From Lachnospiraceae bacterium (lineage in GTDB: Bacteria > Bacillota > Clostridia > Lachnospirales > Lachnospiraceae): a stretch of DNA of 64,000 bases. Below the pieces are notes generated by a model, which saw only the letters and a program-made list of their open reading frames with translations, ran no database searches and was not told where the DNA came from. This document shows positions 21,533 to 45,585 of this stretch, piece by piece. Each line of letters begins with the position of its first letter. Within the stretch, counting starts at the first letter, position 1. Position numbers and translations under genes: made by a program. The stretch spans positions 1-64,000 of the forward strand of contig JAFUZJ010000054.1 of NCBI GenBank assembly GCA_017476665.1. The letters are read 5' to 3'.

Positions 21533-21616
21533 GCGGAAGTGTCGGAACTGGCAGACGAGCAAGACTAAGGATCTTGTGGTAGCAATACCGTGTGGGTTCA
21601 AGTCCCATCTTCCGCA
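21533..21616 (+). tRNA. tRNA-Leu(AAG)
   Basis: The acceptor stem is GCGGAAG / CTTCCGC. The anticodon stem-loop is CAAGA-CTAAGGA-TCTTG with anticodon AAG. A long class-II variable arm is present, and the T-loop is GTTCAAGTC. The 3' CCA is not encoded. The T-arm and acceptor 3' half are the target used by the mobile element that starts here. Confidence 0.95.
21596..21616 (+). repeat. attL: 21-bp direct repeat within tRNA-Leu
   Basis: The 21 bp from the T-loop to the discriminator base (starting GTTCAAGTCCC, ending CTTCCGCA) recur exactly at 45565-45585. Insertion restored the tRNA 3' end. Confidence 0.95.
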
Positions 21617-23015: not shown

Positions 23016-23085
23016 TACAGTCACCCCCTTTCAAATCAATAATATGTGCCTGAAAAATCAGCGCTTACGCACCACTAGAAGACTT

Positions 23086-26788: not shown

Positions 26789-27079
26789 ATGAAATCACAA
26801 AGCAAGAAAAATAAAACTGAAAGAATCGATATACGCCTTACAAAATCTGAATTGAGCAGATTAAAACGCTATGCTCAAAAATACGGAATGAGCGTATCTG
26901 AATATATTTTGGGAAACGTATTTTCTACCCCCAACTATTACAGACAGGAACTGAATTTTATTCAAACCATGACGGCATTACAAAATTATGTGAATGATAT
27001 TAATGAAGGAAAAGCAGATCCCGCTGATACCGCAAAAAGTCAGGAGGTCATTGATGAAATATGGAAAAAATTATCATAA
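26789..27079 (+). CDS. mobC: MobC-like relaxosome protein
   Basis: The start is ATG 26789 after GGAGGATAATT. The 96-residue product has a basic N-terminus, then RIDIRLTKSELSRLKRYAQK and SVSEYIL, the ribbon-helix-helix pattern of MobC/MbeC accessory proteins. A C-terminal MobC-type helix follows. These proteins bind near oriT and help the relaxase open DNA. The stop overlaps the relaxase start by 19 bp, so the pair is translationally coupled. Confidence 0.8.
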   Translation: MKSQSKKNKTERIDIRLTKSELSRLKRYAQKYGMSVSEYILGNVFSTPNYYRQELNFIQTMTALQNYVNDINEGKADPADTAKSQEVIDEIWKKLS

Positions 27080-27534
27080 AAATAAAGTCTGGCAGAAAAG
27101 CCAAATACAATAGTAATCGCGCCATCAAAAATCTGATGCATTATATTACGCGAGAGAAAGGCACATCGGATAAAGTTCGCCATTGGGGTACTCGTGGTTT
27201 AAACCACGATATAGATAAAGCCTCTGCACAATTTATCAAAACCCAGAAACTGTTGCGAAAAAATAAGAACCGACGTGCATATCATATAATCGTATCATTT
27301 CCTATTGAGTTTCAGGATATCGATTTTGTAAATACAGCTGCCGATAAAGTTGCTGACTATTTTGGGTATGATTATCAAGTGGTATATGGTGTTCATACCA
27401 ATACGAAAGTGCTCCACTTTCATCTGATGATCAATTCTGTCAGTTATGTAACTGGATTAAAATTTCATAAGAACAAGCATGAATTGGAAAAAATGAAGGG
27501 CGATATATTAACTGTAATCAACAGCATCTCATAG
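27061..27534 (+). CDS. mobA: minimal HUH relaxase (MobA-like)
   Basis: The 157-residue protein begins MEKIIIKIKSGRKAKYNSN. It carries the relaxase domain: a likely catalytic Tyr near the N-terminus (YNSNRAI or MHYIT), the HIIVSFP strand, and the metal-binding H-x-H in VLHFHLMINSV. It stops soon after (about 40 residues), so it has no helicase, primase or coiled-coil tail. Relaxases of MOBP type are usually 250 or more residues. It would nick oriT so that a helper conjugative element can transfer this one. The frame is intact, but functional sufficiency is unproven. Confidence 0.72.
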   Translation: MEKIIIKIKSGRKAKYNSNRAIKNLMHYITREKGTSDKVRHWGTRGLNHDIDKASAQFIKTQKLLRKNKNRRAYHIIVSFPIEFQDIDFVNTAADKVADYFGYDYQVVYGVHTNTKVLHFHLMINSVSYVTGLKFHKNKHELEKMKGDILTVINSIS

Positions 27535-27622: not shown

Positions 27623-27742
27623 CATACCTTTCTTTATCGTAATTTATGGATACCTAGATTCTTCTAATAATTCGCACGATTTGTTGATATTTTCGTTCGA
27701 TTGGTATATAATAATAGTACAAAAAAAGAAAGGGTGATGCTT

Positions 27743-27958
27743 ATGTCGATCACAGCTACCGAACTCAAGATGAATTTAGGCAAATATCTACTACTAGCCG
27801 AAACCGAAGATGTATATATTACACGTAATGGTAAGGTTGTTGCCAAGCTATCCAATCCATACCAAGATCGTGTGGACGTTGCCAAATCACTGTTTGGCAT
27901 ATTGTCATCTGATATGACTCTTGAAGAATCAAGAGAAGAAAGGCTGAATAAAATATGA
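27743..27958 (+). CDS. Phd/YefM-like antitoxin
   Basis: The start is ATG 27743, 8 nt after AAAGGG. The upstream ATG is too close to that site. The 71-residue protein has ITATELKMNLGKYLLLAE and VYITRNGKVVAKLSNP, the DNA-binding half of Phd/YefM antitoxins, with a short helical C-terminal tail for toxin binding. Its stop overlaps the PIN gene start (ATGA). The pair is a type II toxin-antitoxin unit that probably stabilises the element. Confidence 0.85.
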   Translation: MSITATELKMNLGKYLLLAETEDVYITRNGKVVAKLSNPYQDRVDVAKSLFGILSSDMTLEESREERLNKI

Positions 27959-28383
27959 GAGCGTTAATTGATACCTGTATAATTATTGACGCTCTCCAAT
28001 CAAGAGCGCCCTTCAAGGACTCTGCCGAGGCCATTTTCCTTCATGCTGCCAACAGAAATTTTGACGGATTTATTACTGCCAAGTCATCGACAGATATTTA
28101 TTATCTGACCCACCGGATCACCCATAACGACGCAGACACAAGAAAAATACTGTCCAACTTGTTTTTACTATTTATTCCATTGGACACCCTTGGTTTAGAT
28201 TGCAGAAAGGCTCTTTCTTCAGACATCTCTGATTATGAAGATGGAGTTATGATAGAGACTGCTCTCAGATCTGGAATAGACTGCATCGTTACAAGAAATA
28301 CTAAAGATTATGCCAAGTCTCCGGTTACAGTTTATCAGCCAGAGGATTTTCTATTATTGTTGAAATCTAATTCCGAAGATTGA
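27955..28383 (+). CDS. PIN-domain toxin (VapC-like)
   Basis: The 142-residue protein begins MRALIDTCIIIDAL, which carries the first acidic residue of the PIN site. Later come DYEDGVMIETAL and CIVTRNTKDY, which supply the other acidic and Asn residues. VapC-type PIN proteins are Mg2+-dependent RNases that cut tRNA or rRNA. The 4-bp overlap with the upstream Phd-like gene defines the toxin-antitoxin pair. A perfect hairpin (28426-28477) and a terminator follow in the next 250 bp. Confidence 0.85.
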   Translation: MRALIDTCIIIDALQSRAPFKDSAEAIFLHAANRNFDGFITAKSSTDIYYLTHRITHNDADTRKILSNLFLLFIPLDTLGLDCRKALSSDISDYEDGVMIETALRSGIDCIVTRNTKDYAKSPVTVYQPEDFLLLLKSNSED

Positions 28384-28510: not shown

Positions 28511-28553
28511 AAAAAAGACCATGCCACCTTACAGATAGGTACAATGGTCTTTA
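28511..28553 (-). terminator. terminator of the TIR-gene transcript
   Basis: Stem AAAGACCAT / ATGGTCTTT with an inner ACCT/AGGT pair is followed on the minus strand by six T. Confidence 0.75.
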
Positions 28554-28630: not shown

Positions 28631-30739
28631 TTAAGCCTCAACTTTTGCGTAAACCACAATGCCATTATCTATAATATCTCCACTTGAACTGTCACGATAG
28701 TATATTTTGAAGGGCGACTCTCCAATTGGATACTCACTGTAAATAATGGGCATATTATATCTTGAGTTGCCTTCTAAATCATAAGAAACTATTTTTTCAA
28801 AAGGAAGGCAAAGCATTCTATTTGCAGAAGCAACCAACAATCTATCATTATAATAATACTTTACCTGTGCTCTGGAACCGGTATTATCCCAGCATAATAA
28901 TCCCTCATCACAGAAATCATAGATCTCATACTTTCCGAAGCCATCATCAGTATTCCATTTTGAGTCCCTACAATCCGTGGAAATGATAATCACTTCATCA
29001 GAAATGAATTTTTTTTCTGGATTCTTCCAAAGTTCTTCACGTGAGTATTTCCCCAGCTCAGATGCCGCCTTTAGAAAGTCCTTTCTCATTTGGTTCTTCA
29101 TCAGAATAACTTTATTTATATCCTTAGGAATAATCTCTTCTTGTTCACCCGAAAAATATGTCATATCATCACCAAGCCTAAAAATCTGTTGATAATTCTT
29201 TGCATCTATAGTGTATTCTAATGGTACAATCTTTGGGATTCCATCTTCATCAGCAGGATATGGATCTCGACTCAATTCTAATATAAGCTCTTTCCACTTT
29301 TTATCTGGCGATTCCATGTAACACACATTAAGCTGATATGGATGATTTCGTTTTACTATTCCCTTCTCAAGACTTCTGCCAAAAACTTTCAAATTGCGAA
29401 TAGTAACCTCACTATAAAGTTCTATCTGTAAACAAACATTCTTATGTTTCGGAAGTAACTCTCTTCTTCCCCAAATATTAATTGGATCTACAGTTCCTGG
29501 GATCTGCTTATTCAATTCAACAATTTTCACATCAAAGATAGGTTGATTCAGCGCCGACAGTCGTATGTCATCTTCCGTTTCGGATGCACAAATATTGTTT
29601 TGTACACGTCTCTCAACCGCTTCAATAGCCTTTGCTAAATCAGGATTATTACTATCCGCAACGTTCTTCATAAACTCATTAATGTTAAGTTGAATTAACT
29701 TAATCTTCTTAAGTTCCTCAGCTTGAGAGGTGACCAATGCAGGATCCATACCCACTAAGGCTTTTTCAAGATTCTCTTTCTCATTTATCCAATATTTTAC
29801 ATAATTGAGTTGCCCAATAGGTTTGTAGATTTCCTTTGCACTATCTTCTACAAGAAACATCGAATGATTGATCCAATTATCGTCTTTTAAAAGTTGCATG
29901 ACTTCATATAGACAGTTAACAGATTTCAAATAGCTATCCGATACAATTAAAACGACTAGATCGGCCTTTCGTATTTTCTTCATAAAGGCACTAATACTCC
30001 CCCAAGGAGCTATCGAACTCTTGTCTCGTTGAACTATTGCTATAGGAGATAATCTTTTTTCAGTTTCATCCGCAGTCTCATCACTGCCCCAATTATATGA
30101 AATAAATACTGTAGGCTTATCCATGCTTTTGTCTTCCATATTTCCTCTTTTCAATAAAGTAGAAGTAATAATCCAGCCTCCCGACATATAATTTCTTCTA
30201 TCTTCCACATTCTTTGTTGCCACATATCGATATTGATTTGATTGCTCATCTTCTAATGTGAAAACAAACCGAAATTCTTTATACCCTACCCCTCTGACCT
30301 CGAAAACTCGATGACTGAGCGTAATTTCTTCCACTTCATTTGGTCCCAGGGATGTAGGAAATTCAATATTCATATTGAATAAATTTTGACTAGAATTATC
30401 AACAGCTATTAATTCAAAAGTTTCAACACTGATGTTAGAAACAATTACAGATGAGACATTCTTTAAAACGAAAGTCACAGTTGAACCGCCATCGCGTTTA
30501 CATTTTAATTCAAACTTAGGAATAACCACTACTATTGACCTCATTTCTTGTTTCTGTGCGACCAAGTTACTTTCCTTCAACTTAATTTGATATAAAAGAA
30601 TGCCGAAGAAACACTCGTATACGTCCAATCCATGCAAGGAATTCATTAGTCTCACTATAAGCTTTATCATATACATGAATTGCTCCACGTAAAGCCATAA
30701 AAATTCTTCTGAAACGAGAGGATACATTATCATATTCAT
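28631..30739 (-). CDS. TIR-domain protein, candidate NAD-degrading defence effector
   Basis: The 702-residue frame has three parts. An N-terminal beta-sandwich-like region spans about 70-180 (FELKCKRDGGSTVTFVLKNV). The TIR domain (about 208-330) begins KPTVFISYNWGSDE, and SVNCLYEVMQL supplies the Glu (about 279) that is catalytic in TIR NADases. A 370-residue C-terminal region is unclassified. Family knowledge: bacterial TIR proteins cleave NAD+ on phage infection. The first 65 residues of this frame look non-native, while another frame (30582-30773) carries a better N-terminus, so a frameshift may have split it. It lies downstream of the FRG gene on the same strand. Confidence 0.7.
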   Translation of the reverse strand: MNMIMYPLVSEEFLWLYVEQFMYMIKLIVRLMNSLHGLDVYECFFGILLYQIKLKESNLVAQKQEMRSIVVVIPKFELKCKRDGGSTVTFVLKNVSSVIVSNISVETFELIAVDNSSQNLFNMNIEFPTSLGPNEVEEITLSHRVFEVRGVGYKEFRFVFTLEDEQSNQYRYVATKNVEDRRNYMSGGWIITSTLLKRGNMEDKSMDKPTVFISYNWGSDETADETEKRLSPIAIVQRDKSSIAPWGSISAFMKKIRKADLVVLIVSDSYLKSVNCLYEVMQLLKDDNWINHSMFLVEDSAKEIYKPIGQLNYVKYWINEKENLEKALVGMDPALVTSQAEELKKIKLIQLNINEFMKNVADSNNPDLAKAIEAVERRVQNNICASETEDDIRLSALNQPIFDVKIVELNKQIPGTVDPINIWGRRELLPKHKNVCLQIELYSEVTIRNLKVFGRSLEKGIVKRNHPYQLNVCYMESPDKKWKELILELSRDPYPADEDGIPKIVPLEYTIDAKNYQQIFRLGDDMTYFSGEQEEIIPKDINKVILMKNQMRKDFLKAASELGKYSREELWKNPEKKFISDEVIIISTDCRDSKWNTDDGFGKYEIYDFCDEGLLCWDNTGSRAQVKYYYNDRLLVASANRMLCLPFEKIVSYDLEGNSRYNMPIIYSEYPIGESPFKIYYRDSSSGDIIDNGIVVYAKVEA

Positions 30740-30773
30740 TTATAAGTTGATCAAGCTGATCTTTTTCGTACAT
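30582..30773 (-). CDS. small ORF overlapping the TIR gene start, possible displaced N-terminus
   Basis: The 63-residue frame starts at ATG 30773. It reads MYEKDQLDQLINEYDNVSSR with FRRIFMALRGAIHVYD, which is helical and protein-like. It overlaps the first 158 bases of the TIR frame, whose translation there is low-complexity and Met-rich. Either this is a short upstream protein in an overlapping operon, or it is the real start of the TIR protein separated by a one-base frameshift near 30590-30620. No strong ribosome site precedes it (only AGAGAA). Confidence 0.45.
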   Translation of the reverse strand: MYEKDQLDQLINEYDNVSSRFRRIFMALRGAIHVYDKAYSETNEFLAWIGRIRVFLRHSFISN

Positions 30774-30973
30774 ATCTTATTCTCTCTGACATTTAGATAG
30801 ATTAGACACTGTATTATCTTCCAGCAAGATATTATCGCATTCTGTTATAAGATCTTGTTTCCTTTTTCATATCTAGCACCTCTCGAAATTCTCGTCTATT
30901 ATTGACGCCCATATTTCACACTGAAATAATTGATGTAACATCATACTTTTTGAATATCTACTGACTGCTCTTC

Positions 30974-32110
30974 TCAATTATTTTCATATTTCCGTTTTAT
31001 CTCCATAGCAGTGTACTCTAATTCGGGATAAATATAATCAGCACTAATACCAATACTTGATAAATCTTTTAATATTTTCTTTTTAGATTTAGCTTCAATT
31101 ATAATACTACAAAAGCTATTTTGTATTTTAGATCTACTTAATTCCTTTATGCTACAATCCATTTGAAATCTACCACTTAGATTATCCCAAAAAATCTTTT
31201 TCTTATCATCGTCCGAATAGGAATTAAACATCTTTGCAAAACACTCTTCTGTTAAAACTGCTGTATTTTCCTTCCGATAAAACTCGATAGGTTCTTGCTC
31301 CCACGCTTGTTCAACCTTTGTTCTGTCTATCTTGCCAAAGGAATAATCCTGCAATGCCTTTTCCAATCCCAATTCTTTTCCATGTATAAGAATTCTTCTA
31401 TATCTGTCATATATGTTGTTAAAAAAGAGCATAAACAAGCCAGATTGATTTGCAATGCGCTGGTTCCAATACTTCGGTCTAACAACTAGCGTTTCATTAT
31501 ATAGATATACTTCTGATAAATATTTCCTAAGCGTTAGCCCATCATCGCACAAATACTCATCAACAGTATAAACATCGTCAAATCCTTTTTTAACTGCCTT
31601 GCTACATATAGCATTTACAACCACCGAAGTATCATTCTGCAAATCTGTACTATGACAAAGAACACGACCATTTTTCGTAGTTTTAGAGTCACATGCAAAA
31701 TATAATGACACAAGAGGATTTAACGAAAAATCAAGTATTCTAGTTGGAAGACCATAATGCTGCATCTTACCAAGCATATCAAATTCAGTGAGTCCACTAA
31801 ATGCATCTGGGCGTCGAGTCAGAAAATCGTTAATTAATACCGCCTCAGTATCTATCTCCAGATTCTTGATTCTTGCTAAACTTGGTTTCAAATCATAATC
31901 TTGGTCAGCCATCCCACGGTAAATAACAGTCTGATCATATATTGGATCCTTATTTATAGATGAAATCACTGATATAAGCCTAACATAATCTGCTAAGGTA
32001 CTAATGCAAAAAGTGGGATGCGAATAATACCCTTGTGAAGGAATTATGAAACTATTAAATACTTTCGATGTCTTCCTTTTTACAGCCGTCGCAAATGATA
32101 CATCGAACAT
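30974..32110 (-). CDS. FRG-domain protein
   Basis: The start is ATG 32110, eleven bases after AGGAGG. A GTG 9 bp upstream is too close. The 378-residue protein carries VIYRGMADQDYDLKPSLAR (about 64-82) and MQHYGLPTRILDFSLNPLVS (about 117-136), the core of the FRG domain, named for its conserved Phe-Arg-Gly. The domain has weak resemblance to ADP-ribosyl-type folds and occurs in proteins of mobile elements and defence loci. The biochemical role is not established. The neighbourhood (TIR gene 200 bp downstream, R-M genes 190 bp upstream, same strand) suggests antiphage cargo. Confidence 0.75.
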   Translation of the reverse strand: MFDVSFATAVKRKTSKVFNSFIIPSQGYYSHPTFCISTLADYVRLISVISSINKDPIYDQTVIYRGMADQDYDLKPSLARIKNLEIDTEAVLINDFLTRRPDAFSGLTEFDMLGKMQHYGLPTRILDFSLNPLVSLYFACDSKTTKNGRVLCHSTDLQNDTSVVVNAICSKAVKKGFDDVYTVDEYLCDDGLTLRKYLSEVYLYNETLVVRPKYWNQRIANQSGLFMLFFNNIYDRYRRILIHGKELGLEKALQDYSFGKIDRTKVEQAWEQEPIEFYRKENTAVLTEECFAKMFNSYSDDDKKKIFWDNLSGRFQMDCSIKELSRSKIQNSFCSIIIEAKSKKKILKDLSSIGISADYIYPELEYTAMEIKRKYENN

Positions 32111-32300
32111 AATATACACTACCTCCTACTATTACAGCAGAACTTAAATCCTTTTTCAAGCACATAGCATGAAAAGTCTCCTAAACATCTATACATTATA
32201 ATCTCATACATGTATTCTTTAAATATTAGCTTGTCCCTATCTACAAGTATTGTGGGAAAGAACCAATAATTACTCTTCTTTCTTCGTCATCTTACACCGT

Positions 32301-35300
32301 TTATTCTCCAAATAATTCATCCAACTTCTGTTGCAGTGTCCCCGCTTTCGCATACGGCAGAGCATCTACCTGCTTGAAATTATGCTTAAATCCGTCCGAA
32401 TCATCTGCAAATCCAAGGATATAGCTTGTGGCAATCTTGTATATGATCTCTGTTGGAGCCAAACCATATACCTGTTTTTCAAAGATATGTCTGAGTCTCT
32501 CTTTGCTGTCCGGGAACTGTTTCTTCATCTCTTCGCTTTGAAACAATCTCTTTACGATTTCAGTAATATACAGACCGGATTTCATATACAGATCAATAAA
32601 TGTCTTATCCTTATCATCAAAGCAGCCCGGATTTTCTTCTTCTAACATATCTACCATCCGTTTTACAACATCCTTGGGCGTGAATATCTGGTTTGTCTTT
32701 TGAGGCGGTATATAATCAAATATGTCTTCTACACTCTTTTCATCGAAGTAATCCGCAAGTTTCTTTTTCAGAGCCAGGAACTCTCTTACAGAATCGTCAA
32801 ATACAACTGGATCAAAAAGCTGACCGTCAAAGTGCTTGGTTTCCCCTGTTTCCTCCTCTGTATAATCCCCGCCGTCCCGCAGGAACTTAAACTGCTCCAA
32901 TGTAATACTGGTCACTTCCTTGAATACATGTCCGGGGATATTATTATCAAAGGTCGCAAGTGTAACCGTCTCATTACCATAAGCCATGAGGAAGGACGGG
33001 ATTGTACGTGAAAACCCACGCAAATGGTCTCTTACTCCATCTTCTATCTCGGTCTTTAGGCGTTCCTTCTTCTTTGTTTCTACTGTCCGTATGGTCGTCT
33101 GCGCGGAAGTGTCGCCAAATTCATCTATTGCAGTCTGAAGCTCTTCCTCAAACCGTTTTATAGACTCTTGCTTCTTCTGCTTGAACTCTTCATCAATCTC
33201 TTCGCTGGTCTTACCTGTCTCATGCCGTTTCTGTTGAGCTTCTATTCGCTGGTTTTCAATCACGTTCTGCTCAATCTGAAGACTTCCATGCAGCTTATCA
33301 AAAATCTTATCCACATCACTGTTAAGCTTGTTCTCTATCTGACGCTTATCAGACGCTTTCATATCCGAACCATAGGATTCTTGGGCAAGCTCTACCACTT
33401 CTTTGACCTGCTTTTCTTTGACAAAGGCTTTCAATCTGTCAATCGCCGCTGTGGTATCCGCCTGCTCATCTTCAATCTGGCAGAACGTTTCATCCAACTT
33501 GACTGTCATGTCCTGATCATAAATCTTCTCACCAAAGATATCCAATGTCCTGCCTATAACAAAATTCTCGGAAAGCTCAACTTCACCGTCTTCATTTAGA
33601 GACAGATCTTCTTTGACTTCCTGTGAAAGATTAATCTTTCCGGCAGGCTCCTCTATAGCCTCAAACTGCTGGATAATATCCACCACTTCCTTCGGTGCTG
33701 AAAAAATATTGCTGATATTCTGGAAAAGAAAGTTGCTCATAAATCCACGACATACCACTTCCACTGATCTTATCTTTCTTGGAATAGCCAGCACTTCACG
33801 AGCATCCAGTTCCACCAGCTCACCGTTCTCATCCTCAGCGATCACAGGAAAAAAGTTAAGCAGATTTCGGATATTATTTTCCCTTTCATCAGCTGTGCCG
33901 CCACCGGTAGCCGTATCCGGATTTAGGTTATTGGCAAACTGCTCAAATATAGTCAATGTCCTTGCCGGATCAAAGTCAAACACATAAGCATTTTCCTTTC
34001 TCCAGCTCTCACTTCCCTCTTTGAACAGGCATGGATTCTGCGCACGAAAAGCAGCCTGCATATACAATGCCGGCGATTTCATATTGCAAAGCATCAGGAC
34101 AGCCGTCCATTCAGGAATCGTGATGCCAGTCGTAAGCTGTCCGACTGATAAGGTAATCGTCTTTTCATGCTCTGCTATTGCCTTGACCACTTTATCATAG
34201 GATTTCATAGTTTCATCGTTATCATCCAGCTTGCCATCTCCAGCCGCAAGGATAATCTCATATTCCTTAAAAACCGGATGCTCTGCCAGTTTTTTAGCCA
34301 GAGCCTTGGCACTTTCAACACGATTAAGTAACCAAAATGTGTGTTTCAGTTCTTTTCGCAACTCCGGTGTTGAGAATGGAAACTTCATCTGTAGCGTAAG
34401 CGCATCGAGGAATTTATCGACAGATGATCCGTATTTGAACCTACCATTTTCCACGCTGAAAAACTCATTCAGATCAAAAGCGTATTCTTCTGTCTCACCG
34501 TTGATCTCTACACCCTGTTTCAGTTCATCACGAATGATCTCTGACATCTGATAAGTGTAAAGGCATAATCTCGGAAGAGTTGCATAAGGATTTTCTTCTT
34601 GTGAAGTTTCGTCCCAGGTATCCTTCCTCTCCTGTTCATCTGCATAAGTCCAGTTGAATATAGCATGGTCATCAAATTTGCTGTTAGCAAGAGCCTTGAA
34701 CGGTGTCCCGGACAGATGCAGCGTAAACCCACGACGGATCTGATCAAAGGCGATGTCTGTCTTGTAAGTATCCACGCCCTCATGAGCTTCATCGATCACC
34801 AGCACATCCCATTGTAGATTCTTTACCTCTTCCAGCTTATTAACAGCGTTTTTATTGTTGCTGAAATAAATGGAACCTTTTAAATCCTGAAGTGAAACAA
34901 ATTCAATCAGCCCCATAGGACGATCATTCGGGTTCTTCTTTCTTTTATCATGATCCTGCTTATACGTATCATACTTGATAACAAGGGGCTTGTCTTTTAT
35001 TCCGTCCACATTGCTGACAAAGAAGTATCCGGATGCCCTGCCAAGAAAATGCTCATAATCAGAATACCATGAGTTCGCAATAGCGGGCCTATTGGTAACA
35101 ATCAGAACCTTTTGCGCTTTAATCCTTTGAATGAACTCATAAACAGACAGCGTTTTTCCGAATCTGGGTTTCGCATTCCACAAGAATTCTCCACCTTGAT
35201 GATCATTATGATAGGCAACAGTAGTTGAAACCGCTTCATCCTGCTCTTTTCGAAGTTTATAGGGAGATACTTCAAAAATATCACCACCAACTCCCCTATT

Positions 35301-35669
35301 GCTGCGAAAATCATAGAAATGACTCTTTGAGTCAGAAGGGCTGATATGGAACCACTCATTCTCGTCTTTCTTATCAAAGTATTCATTGCCTTCGTCCTGC
35401 GGCTGTTTTACACCATTTTTGCGAAGATAGGAATGAAATTGTTTGTCGGTAAATGTATCGCCGGAGCCATCATCAAAGATAGCCATACCAGCCCACTCCT
35501 TCTGTGGCTTTATTCCGGCAGTATGTGTCTGCTGGCGGATTCTGGTATCAACATCCTGCTCGGTATAGCCTATCTTGATATATCCATCATGATAAGTGAT
35601 TCCCGGAGTGGTATAGGCATATATCATGGGAACAACCGGTTTTGACGATTTGATATTCGGCGTATTCAT
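32301..35669 (-). CDS. GIY-YIG nuclease / superfamily-2 helicase / adenine methylase-like fusion, restriction subunit
   Basis: The 1122-residue protein starts one codon step after the upstream stop (TAGATG). Residues 14-90 form a T5orf172/GIY-YIG-like nuclease (YAYT, GYIKIGY, then FHSYLRKNG). The SF2 helicase has AKPRFGKTLS (about 166-175), VIDEAHEG (about 291-298), LSGTPF and a long C-terminal helicase lobe. Coiled coil spans about 720-880. The last 130 residues hold a methylase-like start (NQIFTPKDVVKRMVD, FIDLYMKSG). It acts as the DNA-cutting and translocating part of the R-M system. The split with the two methylase genes upstream is unusual. Confidence 0.72.
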   Translation of the reverse strand: MNTPNIKSSKPVVPMIYAYTTPGITYHDGYIKIGYTEQDVDTRIRQQTHTAGIKPQKEWAGMAIFDDGSGDTFTDKQFHSYLRKNGVKQPQDEGNEYFDKKDENEWFHISPSDSKSHFYDFRSNRGVGGDIFEVSPYKLRKEQDEAVSTTVAYHNDHQGGEFLWNAKPRFGKTLSVYEFIQRIKAQKVLIVTNRPAIANSWYSDYEHFLGRASGYFFVSNVDGIKDKPLVIKYDTYKQDHDKRKKNPNDRPMGLIEFVSLQDLKGSIYFSNNKNAVNKLEEVKNLQWDVLVIDEAHEGVDTYKTDIAFDQIRRGFTLHLSGTPFKALANSKFDDHAIFNWTYADEQERKDTWDETSQEENPYATLPRLCLYTYQMSEIIRDELKQGVEINGETEEYAFDLNEFFSVENGRFKYGSSVDKFLDALTLQMKFPFSTPELRKELKHTFWLLNRVESAKALAKKLAEHPVFKEYEIILAAGDGKLDDNDETMKSYDKVVKAIAEHEKTITLSVGQLTTGITIPEWTAVLMLCNMKSPALYMQAAFRAQNPCLFKEGSESWRKENAYVFDFDPARTLTIFEQFANNLNPDTATGGGTADERENNIRNLLNFFPVIAEDENGELVELDAREVLAIPRKIRSVEVVCRGFMSNFLFQNISNIFSAPKEVVDIIQQFEAIEEPAGKINLSQEVKEDLSLNEDGEVELSENFVIGRTLDIFGEKIYDQDMTVKLDETFCQIEDEQADTTAAIDRLKAFVKEKQVKEVVELAQESYGSDMKASDKRQIENKLNSDVDKIFDKLHGSLQIEQNVIENQRIEAQQKRHETGKTSEEIDEEFKQKKQESIKRFEEELQTAIDEFGDTSAQTTIRTVETKKKERLKTEIEDGVRDHLRGFSRTIPSFLMAYGNETVTLATFDNNIPGHVFKEVTSITLEQFKFLRDGGDYTEEETGETKHFDGQLFDPVVFDDSVREFLALKKKLADYFDEKSVEDIFDYIPPQKTNQIFTPKDVVKRMVDMLEEENPGCFDDKDKTFIDLYMKSGLYITEIVKRLFQSEEMKKQFPDSKERLRHIFEKQVYGLAPTEIIYKIATSYILGFADDSDGFKHNFKQVDALPYAKAGTLQQKLDELFGE

Positions 35670-36695
35670 CTATACCATCTCCTTTACATTAGTTTCAATA
35701 AAATCCATCTCATCCTGGGTGAGGTTATACTTTTTGTATAGCTGTTCATCAATACTTTTGATTGAAACACTCCATGCTATGTCAGATTTATCCGTAAAAT
35801 CTTGTTTTGGAACAAACCGCCAAACTGCAGGTAAATTGTCCTGTGTTATTTTCAGAACATACAAAAGTGCACGGCAAAACTTAGTCTTGATGTATTTTGC
35901 CAAGTTAATCGCTTCTATTTCACTATCAAAAGTTCCAATTGACAAAAATGTTTGTGTAAATGCTATATTAGGCGGAACAATTATAAGTTCTGATAATGAG
36001 TCTCCATATATACCTGATCCGGTTGCCTTTGGAACTAGTACCTTATATTTGAATAAACTTTTATGCTCTGATTTCAAATAACGTCGATGGCAATACTTTT
36101 TTCCTCTTTTACCATTAACCAATCCCAGAACCACATAATCGTCATTTTCTGTTGGTTGATCTGTAAAAATTGGGTTAATATTTAGCACATTTGTTTTTAA
36201 TTGGCTGTGTCTTCCACCATCACCAATATACTTTGTATAATCAGGGTGATCTGCATATATATTTTTCAAATCATATACATTTGAGCTATCAGCTATATCC
36301 GTCAAACTATCAGAAACATCTTTAGCGCCTGCTTTCTTAAGAATTGATCTGAGTTCCACATAGGGTACGAAAGCTTTAATCGGTTCACAATTCTTTTCTG
36401 AATCCCTATATGTAATTGCCACACCACCCTTAATCTCTGTATTAGGAAAAATTTTTGCGGCATTTCGCTCATAATGCAGTACCTTAAAATGCTCGTCTTC
36501 AAGCATTTTTTGATTCCACTCTTTTGGAGTCTGTCCGCCATTAAACAAAAATCTTGCCGGAGTTATAAGCTCGACCTTGTCTGCAACTCCAAATGCTGCA
36601 TTCATAAAGGAATGATATACAGGTAACATTCTTGTGCTATCGGAATCCGTATTCTCTTGGTAGGGTGGGTTCCCTATACAAAAATCAAACTTCAT
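35670..36695 (-). CDS. Eco57I-type N6-adenine DNA methyltransferase, catalytic part
   Basis: The 341-residue protein begins MKFDFCIGNPPYQENTDSD, so it opens directly with the NPPY catalytic motif of N6-adenine methyltransferases. Later segments (AKIFPNTEIKGGVAITY) match the Eco57I family. The SAM-binding motif I that normally precedes NPPY is missing here and appears to reside in the upstream 305-residue protein or at the C-terminus of the downstream helicase. Its stop abuts the start of the 1122-residue protein and its start is 5 bp from the upstream gene, so the three proteins form a tight operon and probably a complex. Confidence 0.75.
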   Translation of the reverse strand: MKFDFCIGNPPYQENTDSDSTRMLPVYHSFMNAAFGVADKVELITPARFLFNGGQTPKEWNQKMLEDEHFKVLHYERNAAKIFPNTEIKGGVAITYRDSEKNCEPIKAFVPYVELRSILKKAGAKDVSDSLTDIADSSNVYDLKNIYADHPDYTKYIGDGGRHSQLKTNVLNINPIFTDQPTENDDYVVLGLVNGKRGKKYCHRRYLKSEHKSLFKYKVLVPKATGSGIYGDSLSELIIVPPNIAFTQTFLSIGTFDSEIEAINLAKYIKTKFCRALLYVLKITQDNLPAVWRFVPKQDFTDKSDIAWSVSIKSIDEQLYKKYNLTQDEMDFIETNVKEMV

Positions 36696-36699
36696 ATCA

Positions 36700-37617
36700 T
36701 TATCCTCTCTTCATGCTGTTATATGATATAGTACAATTATTTCTCCAATCATAGATCTGGCAATCCATCGTTTCCTCTTCTGTGTCATTAATTCCCTGCA
36801 TATAATCAAAGAAGGACAACTGTTCATAACACTCCTTAGGTTTTCCAAAGGGAACCGTTCCTGTGATTCCGTCCATCTGCCAAAGGTTCCATACGATAAT
36901 ATTTGCAATCTTCTTTAATTCCGCTACAGTAGGCTTACGCTGCCATCGGTCCTGCATATAATCTACGAAAGTAATTAACAGATTGATACGAGCAATCAGA
37001 AGATTATCGCCCTGAAATTCATATCCATATACGCTCTGAAAAGCTCTATAAGTCCATTTTATCCATTCTTTTTCATTTTCTGTATTCTCGTTGACCACAC
37101 GCATCTTCCGATCCAGAATGCCAATTCGGCGTTTTATAGGGATAATTTCAGCCGTAGTTGTATCGTATCGGGATACGATGTACGGAGCTTCCCCACAGGT
37201 GATCTCCAATCGGGTAGAATCTACATACGCCTGCCATTCATTCTTCTTTGAAAACTCTATCGGCTCAGTAGTTGGTTCCCAGCTCTGCCCATTCTCAATA
37301 TTGAACACCCCATCCCTTCCAAACCATTCCGCATCACAGTGATTATTCATTTTATTGCAAATCCAGGATGGTGTGAATACTTCAGCTTTCTTACGGGTAC
37401 GTTCCGACTGTTCATCCATGCTCTTTAACACACGAGGCTGAATTGCCAATGCTCTAAATCCAAGCAAAATATCTTCTGTAATCTGAGTTTTGGCACCTAT
37501 ATCCGATTCCGTATAAGCCTCCGTAGCAAATATGATGTTTTTATCTGTGGTTTTATCCTTTAGAAGAACAGACAGCACGTTCTTAACCGGATATTCCCTA
37601 ATATTTATCAGTTCCAC
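36700..37617 (-). CDS. R-M methylase-associated subunit (SAM-motif part)
   Basis: The 305-residue protein contains ERTRKKAEVFTPSWICNKM (about 72-90), the N-terminal signature of N6-adenine methylases. RLEITCGEAPYIVSRYDTT (about 135-153) resembles a methylase motif I segment. It lacks NPPY, which begins the next gene. I read the two as halves of one split methylase. It is the first gene of the R-M operon and is transcribed on the minus strand. An AT-rich gap with a decayed ORF lies upstream. Confidence 0.7.
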   Translation of the reverse strand: MELINIREYPVKNVLSVLLKDKTTDKNIIFATEAYTESDIGAKTQITEDILLGFRALAIQPRVLKSMDEQSERTRKKAEVFTPSWICNKMNNHCDAEWFGRDGVFNIENGQSWEPTTEPIEFSKKNEWQAYVDSTRLEITCGEAPYIVSRYDTTTAEIIPIKRRIGILDRKMRVVNENTENEKEWIKWTYRAFQSVYGYEFQGDNLLIARINLLITFVDYMQDRWQRKPTVAELKKIANIIVWNLWQMDGITGTVPFGKPKECYEQLSFFDYMQGINDTEEETMDCQIYDWRNNCTISYNSMKRG

Positions 37618-37791: not shown

Positions 37792-37956
37792 ATGATTTTC
37801 TTCAAAAGACTATCTGACTCTGAAAAAAAATATTGAAACATCGCCGATAAGCTCCCGGCATCTATTCTGAATATACTGGAATCCGGTGATGAAAGCGAAA
37901 CATCATTATTACTCGAATATTTGAACCTATATACAAAACTGCGCCATAAGGGCTAA
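37792..37956 (+). pseudogene. decayed small ORF with one in-frame TGA
   Basis: A 55-codon frame from ATG 37792 to TAA 37956 reads RLSDSEKKY, TGA, then NIADKLPASILNILESGDES and LLLEYLNLYTKLRHKG. The amphipathic helical composition looks like real protein, and the TGA may replace Trp. It has no good ribosome site. It lies in the gap between the R-M operon and a terminator and is probably a relic. Confidence 0.4.
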
Positions 37957-37988
37957 GAAATCCTGAAGATTTCTTAGCCCTTTCCTTT
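37945..37988. terminator. bidirectional terminator between the small-gene block and the R-M operon
   Basis: A 14-bp perfect stem AGGGCTAAGAAATC / GATTTCTTAGCCCT with a 5-nt loop has a T-rich tail on the plus strand. Confidence 0.75.
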
Positions 37989-40191: not shown

Positions 40192-40971
40192 TTATGCAGC
40201 TTTTGATTTTGTCCGTTTAAGGCTGTTCATCGCCTTTTTGTAAATATCCACGCTCATCTCCTGAACGCTCCTGATCCCATACCTCTGCAGCACCCTTTCC
40301 AGCGCAACCCCAGTCCTTGCAAGCTCATTCTGGATCTGCCTGATCTGTTCTTCCGTCAGGTCAGACAGGTTCTCCTGTGACGTTTCCGGCTGCACTCCCG
40401 CAGTATCCTCTCTGTTCCCTGCCACAGTCCTTTCCTGACCGGCAGCCGCAGACCTGTCAGCCAAGCGGAATACCTCTTTGCCCTGCTGGTTGACGATCAC
40501 AAGTCCCACGATCTCCCTGTTTCCGTTGTAGGAAATACTTCTGACGGAGAACTTATCGTAGGTGATGTACCTGTCAGCCTTCTTCGTGAGATTGACGTTG
40601 GACGCACCTACCCAGATGAAAGGAGCGGTATATAATTCCCTGCCGATACCAAGCGATACACAGGCTCTCTTGAAGGAATCTGACGCTTCCCCTTTCTCGC
40701 TCTCGGAATTGCTCTTTGTACCCACATCCATCTTAAATATCCACTGCTTTTTAGAACTGTCCCATACGCTGACCTTACAGTAGAGATTCCCGGCGATCAC
40801 CAGATGTTCTCTCTGCCAGTTGTTCGCTCCAAAGACCTCATCCAAGATACGCATGTCGCACCGGGCATCCTTATATAATAAAAGAGAAACTCCCTTCTCG
40901 CTGATTGTTCCAACCCTGCATTCGATCTCATCCGCGCGCAGCGTCCTGATCGTTTTTTGTTCCATACACAT
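40192..40971 (-). CDS. Rad52-family single-strand annealing protein
   Basis: The 259-residue protein has ILDEVFGANNWQREHLVI (about 43-60) and SDSFKRACVSLGIGRELY, the two conserved blocks of Rad52-like annealing proteins of phages (Sak/DUF-type). A Ser/Gln-rich linker and a C-terminal helical tail (VALERVLQRYGIRSVQEM) follow. It would anneal strands made by the exonuclease encoded at 41814-42743, giving Red/RecET-like recombination. The true start may be the ATG at 40965, which is better spaced from GAGAGG. Confidence 0.75.
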   Translation of the reverse strand: MCMEQKTIRTLRADEIECRVGTISEKGVSLLLYKDARCDMRILDEVFGANNWQREHLVIAGNLYCKVSVWDSSKKQWIFKMDVGTKSNSESEKGEASDSFKRACVSLGIGRELYTAPFIWVGASNVNLTKKADRYITYDKFSVRSISYNGNREIVGLVIVNQQGKEVFRLADRSAAAGQERTVAGNREDTAGVQPETSQENLSDLTEEQIRQIQNELARTGVALERVLQRYGIRSVQEMSVDIYKKAMNSLKRTKSKAA

Positions 40972-41006
40972 TAATCCTCTCTTTCGCTTGTTTCCTATGA
41001 AGTACC

Positions 41007-41441
41007 TTAGTTAAATGGCAGTTCGTCATCGGCGTCATCAGGAACCCGCATAAAACCGTCCTCGTCAATGGAATACCCCTTGCTGCCTGCTTGTACTGTA
41101 TTCTGTGACATATTCTGTGCCGCGTTCTTGCTCTCTGCAAATTCCTGCTCCTGCACCACGACCTCAAAGAACGGTATCCTCACGCCATTCTTTTCATAAC
41201 TTCCCGTCTGGACTTTTCCGGACACCAAGATCTTGACACCTTTTTTCAGATACTTCTCCACAAAGGCTGCCTGCTTATCAAAGGCAACGAGATTAAAAAA
41301 GTCTGCCGTTATGCCGTCGTCTCTTTTATATTGTTTGTCAACCGCTATGGAATATCTGGCGATCGGCATGGGCGTTTCACTCTGGCTGTACCGGATCTCC
41401 GGATCTTTCGTCAGCCTTCCCATCAAAATTATTTTGTTCAT
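41007..41441 (-). CDS. ssb: single-stranded DNA-binding protein
   Basis: The start is ATG 41441, after AGGGAGCAG. A longer frame would add WREQ-type residues. The 144-residue protein has the OB fold NKIILMGRLTKDPEIRYSQS, DFFNLVAFDKQA and VSGKVQTGSYEKNG. An acidic tail ends DDADDELPFN, the classic SSB C-terminal tip that binds other replication proteins. It is element-encoded, between the annealing protein and the exonuclease. Confidence 0.95.
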   Translation of the reverse strand: MNKIILMGRLTKDPEIRYSQSETPMPIARYSIAVDKQYKRDDGITADFFNLVAFDKQAAFVEKYLKKGVKILVSGKVQTGSYEKNGVRIPFFEVVVQEQEFAESKNAAQNMSQNTVQAGSKGYSIDEDGFMRVPDDADDELPFN

Positions 41442-41456
41442 CTGCTCCCTCCACAT

Positions 41457-41801
41457 TTACGGCATCATATGTTTCCGCTCTTCTCTGGTGATGATCCGTA
41501 CCCATTCGTGTTCCATCATGCACTGCATCAGCCCATCGAGTGCCTCCCAAGTATCGTACCTAAGCTCCTCATATTTCAGGAAATACTTCCAGGCAAGGTC
41601 AAGGAAACCGTTGATGTGGTATGCAATCTGAAGATAAGTGAGCGGGATCTTCCTGTTCAGCTCAAAATACTCCTTCATGCAGCTATAGAAACAAATCTTG
41701 GTGCAGTTCTCGAATATCTCTGCCTTGCTGCCTTTACGGATGAGCAGGCATTTGAAGTCGTCAAACTCCTTCTGGACCTTCCTTATCGTCTTTTTCCTCA
41801 T
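41457..41801 (-). CDS. hypothetical element protein
   Basis: The 114-residue protein has a basic start (KKTIRKVQKEFDDFKCL) and a helical, aromatic-rich middle (FYSCMKEYFELNRKIPLTY). Two Met-rich segments lie near the end (QCMMEHEWVRIITREERKH). It lies between SSB (15 bp away) and the YqaJ gene (12 bp away), so it belongs to the recombination operon. No family was recognised. Confidence 0.6.
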   Translation of the reverse strand: MRKKTIRKVQKEFDDFKCLLIRKGSKAEIFENCTKICFYSCMKEYFELNRKIPLTYLQIAYHINGFLDLAWKYFLKYEELRYDTWEALDGLMQCMMEHEWVRIITREERKHMMP

Positions 41802-41813
41802 GCTCCAGCCTCC

Positions 41814-42743
41814 TTATGCTGCCTTGACGGTGAATCTTCTGCTGCTGGTGGTGACGGCAAATTCATCATAAAGATCCGGTCTCTCTTCCTTCATCTTCTT
41901 GGCATCCAATCTCCTGGTCTCCACGTTCGACCAGGAGATGTGGAATCCCGGTGTATCTGCATACTCATTCTCACCCATCGCCAGCTTGATCTCCTGATCG
42001 ATCTTTTTGCTCTCAGCCTCCAGCTTTTTCATCTGTTCCTCCAGGATCTCCCGGCATTTCAGCTTTTCATCAAAGCCTTTTAACAGAACAGTACTTCCCT
42101 TCCTTGTGTTATGGAAATACTGTTCCAGAACAGCGTCACAAACCTTGCTGCCGTCCGGATCGGGCATACACCGCGGAACCACATGCTCGTACCAGAATTT
42201 TTTCTCCAAGGTAATAAGCTCCTGAATGAACCAGTCATCCCACTCAAATTTCACATAATGGAAACCTTTCCCTAGAATGACAACTGCAAGATACCAAGCC
42301 TTTTTACCTGTAACTGCCATATAATGAAAGCATTGGAACATATAGTGCAGCGGATATTTTCCATTCTCCCACTTATCTGCGCTATATGCGCTTGCCGTCT
42401 TACACTCCAATCCGGCATCTTCCCCTACCACCAGCCTGTCCACATCTGCGAACATGAAGGGATGCTCTACACTGCGGTACATCATATTTGACCGTCTTAC
42501 CTTTAACCCGGTCGCCTCCGTAAAACGCTGCGCTACATACTCCTCCAGATCCTTGCCCAGACGCATGGACTCGGAATCTGTCTCCTCGATATCCTCAGAA
42601 GTCTTATCCTGAAATACTTTCATCGCACTGCTATAAGGATTTACCCCGGCGATCGCACCTGCATCGGAACCGCCTATCCCGGTCTTGCGTAATCTCAGCC
42701 ATTCCTCATGTTCCATTCCTAAAGTTGATGTTTTAGTATACAT
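41814..42743 (-). CDS. YqaJ/lambda-exonuclease-type recombinase nuclease
   Basis: The start is ATG 42743 after AAAGGGGACAGTAAAT. An upstream frame is poorly supported. The 309-residue protein has the YqaJ N-terminal WLRLRKTGIGGSDAGAIAG and the PD-(D/E)xK core: E in GKDLEEYVAQRF, D in MFADVDRLV and ExK in AGLECKTAS. These enzymes chew 5' ends of double-stranded DNA to give 3' overhangs for the annealing protein. It pairs with the Rad52-like gene 0.8 kb downstream. Confidence 0.9.
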   Translation of the reverse strand: MYTKTSTLGMEHEEWLRLRKTGIGGSDAGAIAGVNPYSSAMKVFQDKTSEDIEETDSESMRLGKDLEEYVAQRFTEATGLKVRRSNMMYRSVEHPFMFADVDRLVVGEDAGLECKTASAYSADKWENGKYPLHYMFQCFHYMAVTGKKAWYLAVVILGKGFHYVKFEWDDWFIQELITLEKKFWYEHVVPRCMPDPDGSKVCDAVLEQYFHNTRKGSTVLLKGFDEKLKCREILEEQMKKLEAESKKIDQEIKLAMGENEYADTPGFHISWSNVETRRLDAKKMKEERPDLYDEFAVTTSSRRFTVKAA

Positions 42744-42882
42744 ATTTACTGTCCCCTTTCTGAAAAATAAAGGGGAACACCGTCTCTTGATGTTCCCCTG
42801 CACACTTCTAATCTGTTGATCGATCAGCTACTCACACTTCTCTTATGCCACTCCTCCTGATCCATTCCTTTTGCCCGCCGAC

Positions 42883-42981
42883 TTATGCCACATGCCTTAC
42901 AATGATCAGAACAACGGATACCAACAATACAAAAGCCACACAGATCTCAATAATTCCCCAGCCATGACCATCCAGTTTCAT
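42883..42981 (-). CDS. small single-helix membrane protein
   Basis: A 32-residue frame from ATG 42981, preceded by AAGGAGGGTATT, encodes MKLDGHGWGIIEICVAF and LLVSVVLIIVRHVA. It is one clear membrane helix with little else. It has the best ribosome site in the area and lies between the DUF932 and YqaJ genes. The role is unknown, and a phage-satellite or holin-like accessory is only a guess. Confidence 0.6.
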   Translation of the reverse strand: MKLDGHGWGIIEICVAFVLLVSVVLIIVRHVA

Positions 42982-42991
42982 AATACCCTCC

Positions 42992-43921
42992 TTACGCAGC
43001 CACCATCTCATAAGCCTTGTCAATCAGGCTGTTTCCGTCAGCGGTCTTTGCGAACAGGGTTTCCCTGTAGTTGCTGCGCTCCCTCTGTGGTTTCGCATGA
43101 GTTGCGAAGTCTGATACTGCATTCACATAACGATAACCATTCTTCCCTACTCCTTTCAGATCGGGAGCTTCATAGAATCTGGTCAGAACACCTTCTCTGG
43201 ACTGCATCACATTCTTCTTCTGGATCTCGGTAGGAGCAAGCGGCATCGGGAACAGGATCTCTGTAAATTCCGCCACCTCCCTGTCGTTTAACTTACGATG
43301 GGAAAGCCTGTCAATGCCCTTGCCAAGCTCGTTCATGTACTTGTTTGCATTCAACAGGGTGTCGAATGCATCATCCAGCTTTTTGTCGATATTCCCCACG
43401 TGATTTACGCTCCAGCACCGGTTTGCTGTTTTGAGCGCAAGGTTCAGAGTGTTCTGGCATACCACTCTGATGGGCGTCATTGCCACTTTAATCGAACCGC
43501 TCCCGTCATGCGCATTAAAGAATACCAGATACGGCATGATCTCATCTCCGGAGATGATATATTTCTGTGGGAGCTTTGCGAGTATCCAAACTCTCCTGCC
43601 ATTCTGCAGGGAACCTGCCGTTTCATAAGTCACACCTTCGCCAAGCAGTGCGTCGGTGAATGAAAAGGCTTCATCATTCTGTACTACTTTGTACCGATCC
43701 GTTACGATACCGAGTATCTGGGAATCGGTGTTCCGCACATTCGCCTTAAATCCGGGAACAGAGATTCCATCGTATGTCCGGATGTCCTTCTGGATCACCC
43801 TCCAATCTAAACCAGCTGCCACCAGAGCGTCCTCCGATGTAGGTGCTTCCTCCACATTTACCCCAAGTCCGTGCCAGGGTGTAGTCCTTGTGTAAAACAT
43901 AGTTTCAACATTAGCAGACAT
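42992..43921 (-). CDS. DUF932 (phage/plasmid-like) protein
   Basis: The start is ATG 43921, after AAAGGAGGGAAGGTAAT. The 309-residue protein has the DUF932/TIGR03299 features: FYTRTTPWHGLGVNVEEAPT at the start, NTDSQILGIVTDRYKVVQND, and TPIRVVCQNTLNLAL. The family is common in phages, plasmids and ICEs and has no known activity. It lies just before the recombination genes, divergent from the HTH gene at 44208. Confidence 0.9.
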   Translation of the reverse strand: MSANVETMFYTRTTPWHGLGVNVEEAPTSEDALVAAGLDWRVIQKDIRTYDGISVPGFKANVRNTDSQILGIVTDRYKVVQNDEAFSFTDALLGEGVTYETAGSLQNGRRVWILAKLPQKYIISGDEIMPYLVFFNAHDGSGSIKVAMTPIRVVCQNTLNLALKTANRCWSVNHVGNIDKKLDDAFDTLLNANKYMNELGKGIDRLSHRKLNDREVAEFTEILFPMPLAPTEIQKKNVMQSREGVLTRFYEAPDLKGVGKNGYRYVNAVSDFATHAKPQRERSNYRETLFAKTADGNSLIDKAYEMVAA

Positions 43922-43922
43922 A

Positions 43923-44030
43923 TTACCTTCCCTCCTTTGCTTTCTGGTAGAGTTTTTCATAAACCTCCACCACGATTGTGACCGCCATAGTTACCGTTCC
44001 GATCAAAATCTTTTTCACTTTCTTTCCCAT
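43923..44030 (-). CDS. 35-residue small protein upstream of DUF932
   Basis: The frame from ATG 44030, after GGAGGAAATTGTAGCG, reads MGKKVKKILIGTVTMAV and TIVVEVYEKLYQKAKEGR. It has a basic start, a short hydrophobic stretch and a charged end. Its stop is 1 bp before the DUF932 start, so the two are translated together. No family was recognised. Confidence 0.55.
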   Translation of the reverse strand: MGKKVKKILIGTVTMAVTIVVEVYEKLYQKAKEGR

Positions 44031-45508: not shown

Positions 45509-45564
45509 AGATTGTAGAGGAGTGCTGAATGTCCTTTCTTTCAGTATTTTTTAATAAAAAATGT

Positions 45565-45585
45565 GTTCAAGTCCCATCTTCCGCA
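45565..45585 (+). repeat. attR: 21-bp direct repeat of the tRNA-Leu 3' end
   Basis: It is identical to 21596-21616, and the base upstream of the repeat differs. The sequence beyond it (CTCTAAAG) is the old junction with the tRNA. Confidence 0.95.

Follow-up and report, generated by a model that had tools for sequence, protein, structure and literature searches.

Several classes of described restriction-modification (R-M) system lie close to the locus considered here. Type ISP enzymes are single chains carrying an Mrr-type nuclease and their own methyltransferase, and Type IIG enzymes combine their two functions in a chain that cleaves at a fixed distance (both according to an excerpt of PMC3874165). 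Effector genes are also found inside R-M operons: PrrC resides within a type I operon (EcoprrI) and is unleashed upon blocked restriction (excerpts of PMC12707154 and PMC3874165), and DarTG2, whose DarT component is an ADP-ribosyltransferase (ART), is located between hsdS and hsdR, a slot that holds another gene pair in four genomes (excerpt of PMC12255303). The FRG domain (Frg) has been placed in the ART superfamily as a possible NADase (excerpt of PMC9503650). Here, we analyse a 64,000-nucleotide stretch of a Lachnospiraceae bacterium (hereafter, the window; assembly GCA_017476665.1, contig JAFUZJ010000054.1, positions 1–64,000), within which positions 28631–37617 hold five intact minus-strand open reading frames (ORFs) identified by ORF calling, Pfam and PADLOC. 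From promoter-proximal to promoter-distal, these encode M1 (305 aa), M2 (341 aa), R (1122 aa), an FRG-domain protein (381 aa) and a TIR-domain protein (702 aa as called).

A preliminary description had read this island as a split R-M system followed by FRG and TIR genes in one direction, the latter two perhaps forming a composite defence with TIR as the effector; the single direction of all five intact genes is borne out here. Overall, we consider it slightly better than an even bet that the island comprises an R-M system with a shared methyltransferase half, lying with FRG and TIR defence cargo in a 24-kb tRNA-Leu element.

Anatomy of the M1, M2 and R proteins

M1 resembles the N-terminal half of a gamma-type adenine methyltransferase: it carries EVFTP at residue 79 and CGEAPY at residue 141, which we take to be motifs X and I, and has neither an NPPY motif nor a recognised target-recognition domain (TRD). 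M2, the putative C-terminal catalytic half with a variable target-recognition part, has NPPY at residue 9, and its Pfam Eco57I match covers positions 73–171 of the profile only. In R, the superfamily 2 (SF2) helicase motifs RFGKT (residues 169–173) and DEAH (293) precede a C-terminal region with TNQIFTP at 992, presumably motif X, and DLYMKSG at 1026, presumably an altered motif I in which Lys takes the place of the usual first Gly of GxG. The R N-terminus yields a Pfam T5orf172/MUG113 match and no Mrr, and eight residues (Y17, K32, G34, R43, F73, D75, H79 and E105) do not vary across all 65 aligned R N-termini (the window's, 57 from R and seven from R~M2 proteins, where ~ denotes a single chain). 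We take these residues to form a GIY-YIG-like active site in which Asp stands in for the usual Glu, and the R N-terminus fits a GIY-YIG-like putative nuclease. One end of the PADLOC IIG profile (REase_MTase_IIG, 1359 positions) is matched by R and the other by M2; the Type I domains N6_Mtase, Methylase_S and HSDR_N all lack a Pfam match at E 1 in M1, M2 and R.

Relatives of the split system and their fusions

A scan with an M1 profile across 84,980 species, each represented by a single genome, gave at least 573 confirmed relatives, of which the best 80 loci were compared; by name, the relatives fetched include many Lachnospiraceae as well as other Bacillota. M1, M2 and R are all separate genes in 39 of the 80 loci, so the split that the preliminary description had proposed is genuine and not a broken gene. 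A further 24 loci carry M1~M2 fusions (22 with R in the locus), four carry R~M2 with a lone M1, and 13 are incomplete; no M1~R fusion was seen among the 80 loci examined. R~M2 also occurs on two plasmids (Enterococcus, Pediococcus) and in one further genome (L097; L and G numbers denote our loci and genomes). On a FastTree M1 tree, which has a midpoint root, no support values and 16 of 91 tips unscored as incomplete, the M1~M2 fusion state changes 12 times and the R~M2 state once.

The fusions reveal how the halves fit together. Pfam Eco57I matches all 18 M1~M2 fusions scanned and all seven R~M2 fusions, and the match spans the join both in one displayed M1~M2 (residues 203–396, profile 2–171, NPPY at 322) and in one displayed R~M2 (residues 939–1085, profile 1–171, NPPY at 1011); in these two, the stretch before NPPY is therefore supplied by M1 and by R, respectively. 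Among 64 separate M1 proteins, EVFTP is present in 61 and CGEAPY in 52, and an NPPY-type motif is missing from 63, the remaining one having an NPPF string whose position was not checked. NPPY is present in 38 of 41 separate M2 proteins (the three in which it was not found possibly owing to start calls) and an NPPY-type motif in none of 57 separate R proteins, 55 of which carry a D-x-Y-M-K-S-G-type string. The Lys and Gly of the altered motif I are invariant in 42 R C-termini, 41 of them from relatives selected by that motif, and are kept in all seven R~M2 fusions. Judged by these sequence features, the three genes M1, M2 and R amount to an R-M system that is both intact and widespread.

M1 and M2 lie more than 150 bp apart in 18 of the 48 loci with separate M1 and M2 genes, and some of these gaps hold other genes. 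The gap is an insertion site within the R-M operon: by eye, its contents (L099, L105, L119, L124, L129, L161, L179 and others) are toxin-antitoxin-like, DUF262-like, nuclease-like and helix-turn-helix genes, and an IS256 transposase sits between M1 and M2 in L099.

Exchange of M2 between systems

Pairwise identities among 55 complete M1/M2/R triples (54 relatives and the window, 18 of them split from fused proteins; 1485 pairs) gave Spearman correlations of 0.61 for M1–R, 0.21 for M1–M2 and 0.005 for R–M2. The clearest single pair is L132/L139, at 97% identity in R, 93% in M1 and 30% in M2; in these fused proteins, identity drops from ~90% to mostly 15–45% right after NPPY. The other pairs displayed show a more gradual drop, with the C-terminus of M2 conserved again. 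A counterexample is L118/L127, in which R and M2 are both 97% identical, and the window's M2 is 81% identical to that of L091 even though the R proteins share 59%. Since M1 and R vary together and M2 is uncoupled from both, M2 looks like an exchangeable half common to the modification and restriction arms, as suggested by anatomy and exchange together. Furthermore, R lacks a recognised target-recognition part, and an exchanged M2 would therefore have to set both specificities.

FRG genes recur between hsdS and hsdR

The FRG protein matches Pfam FRG (PF08867; 1.4e-18, 68.1 bits against a gathering cut-off of 25) and the PADLOC PDC-S15 profiles (best 7e-49), and is therefore an already listed defence candidate, for which the PADLOC entry gives no mechanism. 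The preliminary description held that FRG has no firm biochemical role, which remains correct experimentally, as no known FRG activity or trigger was found in the literature; the published analysis suggests ART superfamily membership and NADase activity (excerpt of PMC9503650).

Of 397 family genomes, 70 contain FRG matches, as do 29 of 378 phylum genomes, the window's genome being counted in both. After dropping four family genomes from the phylum sample (the window's and three already counted), 104 matches remain outside the window's genome: 77 in 69 family genomes and 27 in 25 further phylum genomes. Seven of the 104 lie within 2 kb of HSDR_N (hsdR), all on the same strand, against 0.11 expected under uniform placement in ~3-Mb genomes, an assumption that overstates significance for island genes. 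As a control, TIR_2 was found near hsdR in 1 of 104 cases in the same FRG-bearing genomes. All seven FRG genes sit between hsdS and hsdR with gaps of -26 to 53 bp to their neighbours; hsdS is Pfam-confirmed in L203, L226, L227, L228 and L229, recognised by BLAST in L202 and by eye only in L195, where it is a fragment at a contig end. L226 has one more ORF between FRG and hsdR, and the operon region of L202 includes an integrase and a second hsdS-like ORF. FRG genes are thus a recurrent component of R-M operons, 7 of the 104 lying between hsdS and hsdR. Elsewhere, FRG follows an hsdR-hsdM pair (L197) or comes after hsdR, hsdM, hsdS and a 301-aa ORF (L204). This HSDR_N test replaced a less clean one with N6_Mtase, in which FRG lay within 5 kb in at least 4 of 77 cases against 0.25 expected, counted from the 68 matches with E up to ~1e-18 among those listed.

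The nearest relatives of the window's FRG protein among 63 ORFs are those of L198 (33% over 380 aa) and L197 (35% over nearly the whole length), followed by L203, L206 and L202; L197, L203 and L202 lie in or beside hsd operons, and L206 has no recognised R-M neighbour. Plasmid FRG genes have other neighbours in the four records looked at, of 355 with matches, and no FRG gene was found in viral contigs with six patterns.

The FRG family also has a housekeeping-like context. Short FRG proteins (~250–270 aa) lie near transporter genes that we take to be PotA-like (L062–L066, L070, L073 and L215); by a short sequence string, this holds for 8 of the 63 ORFs, and FRG is therefore not only a defence gene. 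In two further loci (L071 genes 10–11, L078 genes 12–13), FRG is directly followed by a similar 405–412-aa protein.

Proposed mechanism and alternative explanations

We propose that M2 contributes the catalytic NPPY and the target-recognition region to two different partners. With M1, which has motif X and a motif I compatible with S-adenosylmethionine (SAM), it would make up the modification enzyme; joined to the R C-terminal domain, it would form a reader of the same site, probably unable to methylate because R may have lost SAM binding. On unmodified DNA, this reader would license the R helicase and the GIY-YIG-like putative nuclease, and an M2 swap would change modification and restriction specificity together. 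FRG, as a putative NADase of ART fold, would most likely act as a PrrC-like second-line effector tied to the R-M system, and the TIR protein would most likely be a separate NADase. DarTG2 occupies the same slot and PrrC is embedded likewise, so FRG is plausibly another R-M-linked effector of this class. In its most specific form, namely an R-M class with a half-built methyltransferase, M2 common to M1 and to a SAM-dead half in R, and FRG and TIR as NAD-consuming fail-safes, we offer this scheme tentatively and at slightly less than even confidence.

Several observations weigh against it. A profile comparison of the R C-terminus with M1 aligns 21 columns at motif X only (probability 4.9), N6_Mtase matches 4 of 42 R C-termini weakly (best 0.035), and sequence comparison at E 0.01 matched neither M1~M2 nor R~M2 to a solved structure; the putative methyltransferase assignment of window-type R draws on its motifs and on a strong match (99.7%) of its C-terminus to the R~M2 family profile. 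Regarding FRG, HSDR_N lies within 10 kb in 10 of the 104 cases and is lacking in the other 94, and L198, the closest FRG relative, has no recognised R-M gene within four genes on either side. The window's own FRG gene lies outside the R-M operon, following R after 181 bp; being merely adjacent, its link to R-M is weaker here. A promoter-like site precedes it, from a simple scan in which promoter-like sites overall are at chance level (41 versus 44 in shuffles). Lastly, a hidden Markov model (HMM) search found no FRG ORF in 91 fetched loci of this R-M family.

Some of the same evidence suits a plain defence island in which the cargo genes FRG and TIR are unrelated, having no functional connection with the R-M system or with one another, an explanation that we hold to be a serious possibility, if on the doubtful side. 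The spacing before FRG and before the called TIR start (181 and 234 bp), the absence of FRG from the 91 loci and the other genes held by several of the wide M1–M2 gaps all agree with it, whereas the count of FRG genes beside hsdR, 7 against 0.11 expected with a TIR_2 control of 1 in 104, does not. Most simply, the five genes read as an R-M core whose mobile element acquires interchangeable cargo.

Alternatively, R and M2 could constitute a complete, ordinary IIG- or ISP-like R-M enzyme, with M1 as an accessory methyltransferase and M2 not shared. The PADLOC matches, in which R and M2 each cover one end of a single IIG profile, and the existence of single-chain R~M2 with a separate M1 are as such a system would have them, but M1 lacks NPPY in 63 of 64 cases and has no recognised target-recognition part, M2 is fused to M1 in 24 of 80 loci (22 of them retaining R), NPPY is found in 0 of 57 separate R proteins, and R and M2 identities are uncoupled; we regard this arrangement as less likely than not.

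That FRG and TIR are one two-gene system lying beside the R-M genes by chance, TIR being the effector and FRG a sensor or partner, is improbable: the two genes share a strand at 234 bp as called with a terminator-like hairpin after TIR, but the pairing is rare and differently made elsewhere. TIR_2 lies within 5 kb of FRG in 2 of the 104 cases (G180 and G241), compared to ~0.35 expected for the 77 family matches under uniform placement; the G180 neighbour, of 862 aa, starts with a Zn-ribbon-like stretch, and in G241 two genes separate FRG from TIR_2. The other 102 have no TIR_2 within 10 kb, TIR families other than TIR_2 not having been searched. In nine other family genomes with a TIR relative, all drafts, FRG is on another contig in five and absent in four. 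FRG and TIR do therefore meet outside the window, slightly more often than by chance and rarely, and FRG-TIR as a recurrent module was rejected on the 2 of 104 matches outside the window's genome. Of the composite defence suggested in the preliminary description, the association of FRG with R-M survives, in the seven hsdS–hsdR loci, and the FRG-TIR pair does not. An HMM built from 11 TIR sequences found no TIR gene in the 91 R-M loci; it was insensitive, returning nothing but its own ten seeds and overlooking the known TIR_2 genes in G180 and G241, and its silence therefore means little.

The TIR gene and its start

The 702-aa ORF matches Pfam TIR_2 (8e-9, 36.5 bits against a cut-off of 28), and Glu279 in this version, which we take to be the putative catalytic Glu of the TIR domain, aligns in 11 of 11 sequences. 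A 63-aa ORF, read in another frame, overlaps or adjoins the first ~58 residues of the protein as called. In the overlap, codon usage scores 0.18 bits per codon for the 63-aa ORF and 0.03 for the TIR frame, on a scale where the in-frame median is 0.28 and the off-frame 95th percentile -0.11. Translation probably starts at the TTG at 30565, after AAGGAAAG (644 aa), rather than at 30739, other starts being possible. Pfam gave nothing above cut-off for the TIR flanks or the 63-aa ORF.

Relatives of the TIR protein occur in 10 of 200 family genomes (including the window's), nearly all over the TIR part only, which indicates that few proteins are closely related beyond the TIR domain. The whole protein had no match in plasmids, and PADLOC found no ThsA or ThsB match (Thoeris) among the five island proteins. 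One TIR relative lies between hsdS and hsdR together with 646-aa and 150-aa genes (L084, 8768–13433); there and in L085 (4583–6096), a small protein of 150–154 aa is paired with the TIR protein. In L086, L087 and L088, TIR proteins sit directly beside HATPase-type proteins of ~1030–1060 aa, possibly a separate two-gene defence system. The window's genome encodes a second TIR protein (L090, G000:C5), ~48% identical over the TIR part.

Locus layout and the mobile element

The genes are spaced at 4 bp (M1–M2), 0 bp (M2–R), 181 bp (R–FRG) and 234 bp (FRG to the called TIR start); of the gaps given in the preliminary description (5, 0, ~190 and ~200 bp), the second holds and the others are corrected. 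Flanking terminators had also been proposed: a hairpin with a T-run follows TIR and a terminator-like palindrome lies upstream of M1 (Table 1), in a window where a simple scan finds terminator-like sites overall at chance level (8 versus 6.6 in shuffles). The placement within an element is upheld by a tyrosine integrase beside tRNA-Leu and a 24-nt repeat (23/24 identical), which support that the island sits in a 24-kb integrative element bounded by tRNA-Leu 3'-end repeats.

Table 1 Features of the island and of the element around it (positions in the window)
Feature	Position	Strand	Basis
Attachment-site repeat, tRNA-Leu 3' end, 24 nt	21593-21616	+	23/24 identical to second
Tyrosine recombinase (integrase) of the element, beside tRNA-Leu	21672-23024	-	ORF beside tRNA-Leu
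Terminator-like hairpin with T-run, 3' of the TIR gene	28514-28552	-	-17.1 kcal/mol, z -2.8
TIR-domain protein	28631-30565 (called 28631-30739)	-	TIR_2 match
63-aa ORF, just 5' of the likely TIR start and overlapping the TIR N-terminus as called	30582-30773	-	Codon usage
FRG-domain protein, PADLOC candidate PDC-S15; putative ART-superfamily effector	30974-32119	-	Pfam, PADLOC
R, T5orf172/GIY-YIG-like N-terminus, SF2 helicase, motif-X/altered-motif-I C-terminus	32301-35669	-	Pfam ResIII, T5orf172
M2, putative C-terminal catalytic half with variable target-recognition part	35670-36695	-	Pfam Eco57I, PADLOC MTase_II / IIG C-terminus
M1, putative N-terminal half of gamma-type adenine methyltransferase	36700-37617	-	Motifs, PADLOC MTase_II 9e-108
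Terminator-like palindrome of 15 bp upstream of M1, T-tail on the + strand	37948-37982	.	Strong
Second attachment-site repeat	45562-45585	+	23/24 identical to first

Other genes of the element include a relaxase (MobA/VirD2) ORF of 157 aa only, apparently just the N-terminal part (27061–27534); a plus-strand pair of a Phd/YefM-like antitoxin (below cut-off) and a PIN-domain toxin adjoining the island (27701–28383); and, near the right end (40192–43960), a phage-type recombination set of Rad52-like, SSB, YqaJ recombinase and DUF932 genes.

Comparison with known systems

In PADLOC, FRG is already on record as candidate PDC-S15, and R/M2 falls under type IIG. A search of the open-licence PMC literature found no description of split or shared R-M methyltransferases, which is weak as evidence of absence, and FRG in the hsdS–hsdR slot was not found in print, a preprint by Payne et al. 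(2024) possibly reporting it already. If M2 is shared, restriction and modification specificity would be kept matched without a separate S subunit, one exchangeable gene setting both, and such systems would gain a testable route to being decoded. R would then be a reader with a crippled methyltransferase half, in which methylation sensing is separated from methylation. For the FRG domain, the seven genomes with FRG between hsdS and hsdR provide a concrete hypothesis of an R-M-linked effector.

In 7 of 104 cases, FRG resembles PrrC and DarTG2 as a putative effector gene inside a type I operon; the window's FRG differs in following R instead of being embedded. As regards the core, Type ISP enzymes (LlaGI, LlaBIII) resemble the R~M2 relatives in having an SF2-type motor, a gamma-type methyltransferase and a TRD in the same order. 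Here, however, there are three genes, the single-chain R~M2 occurring in relatives only, with a T5orf172/GIY-YIG-like N-terminus, a separate M2, an altered motif I in R and M1 as an extra half-methyltransferase. The Type IIG likeness lies in the PADLOC profiles (REase_MTase_IIG with MTase_II), R and M2 matching the ends of the former and M1 matching MTase_II; in Type IIG, nuclease and complete methyltransferase share one chain, whereas R has no NPPY and a Lys in motif I, and the catalytic half is separate and would alternate between partners. Type I (HsdM-HsdS-HsdR) and BcgI-type systems likewise have one exchangeable specificity component common to modification and restriction (excerpt of PMC3874165). 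In contrast to these, the putatively shared piece here also carries motif IV, and the split runs through the methyltransferase domain itself, with two alternative N-terminal halves.

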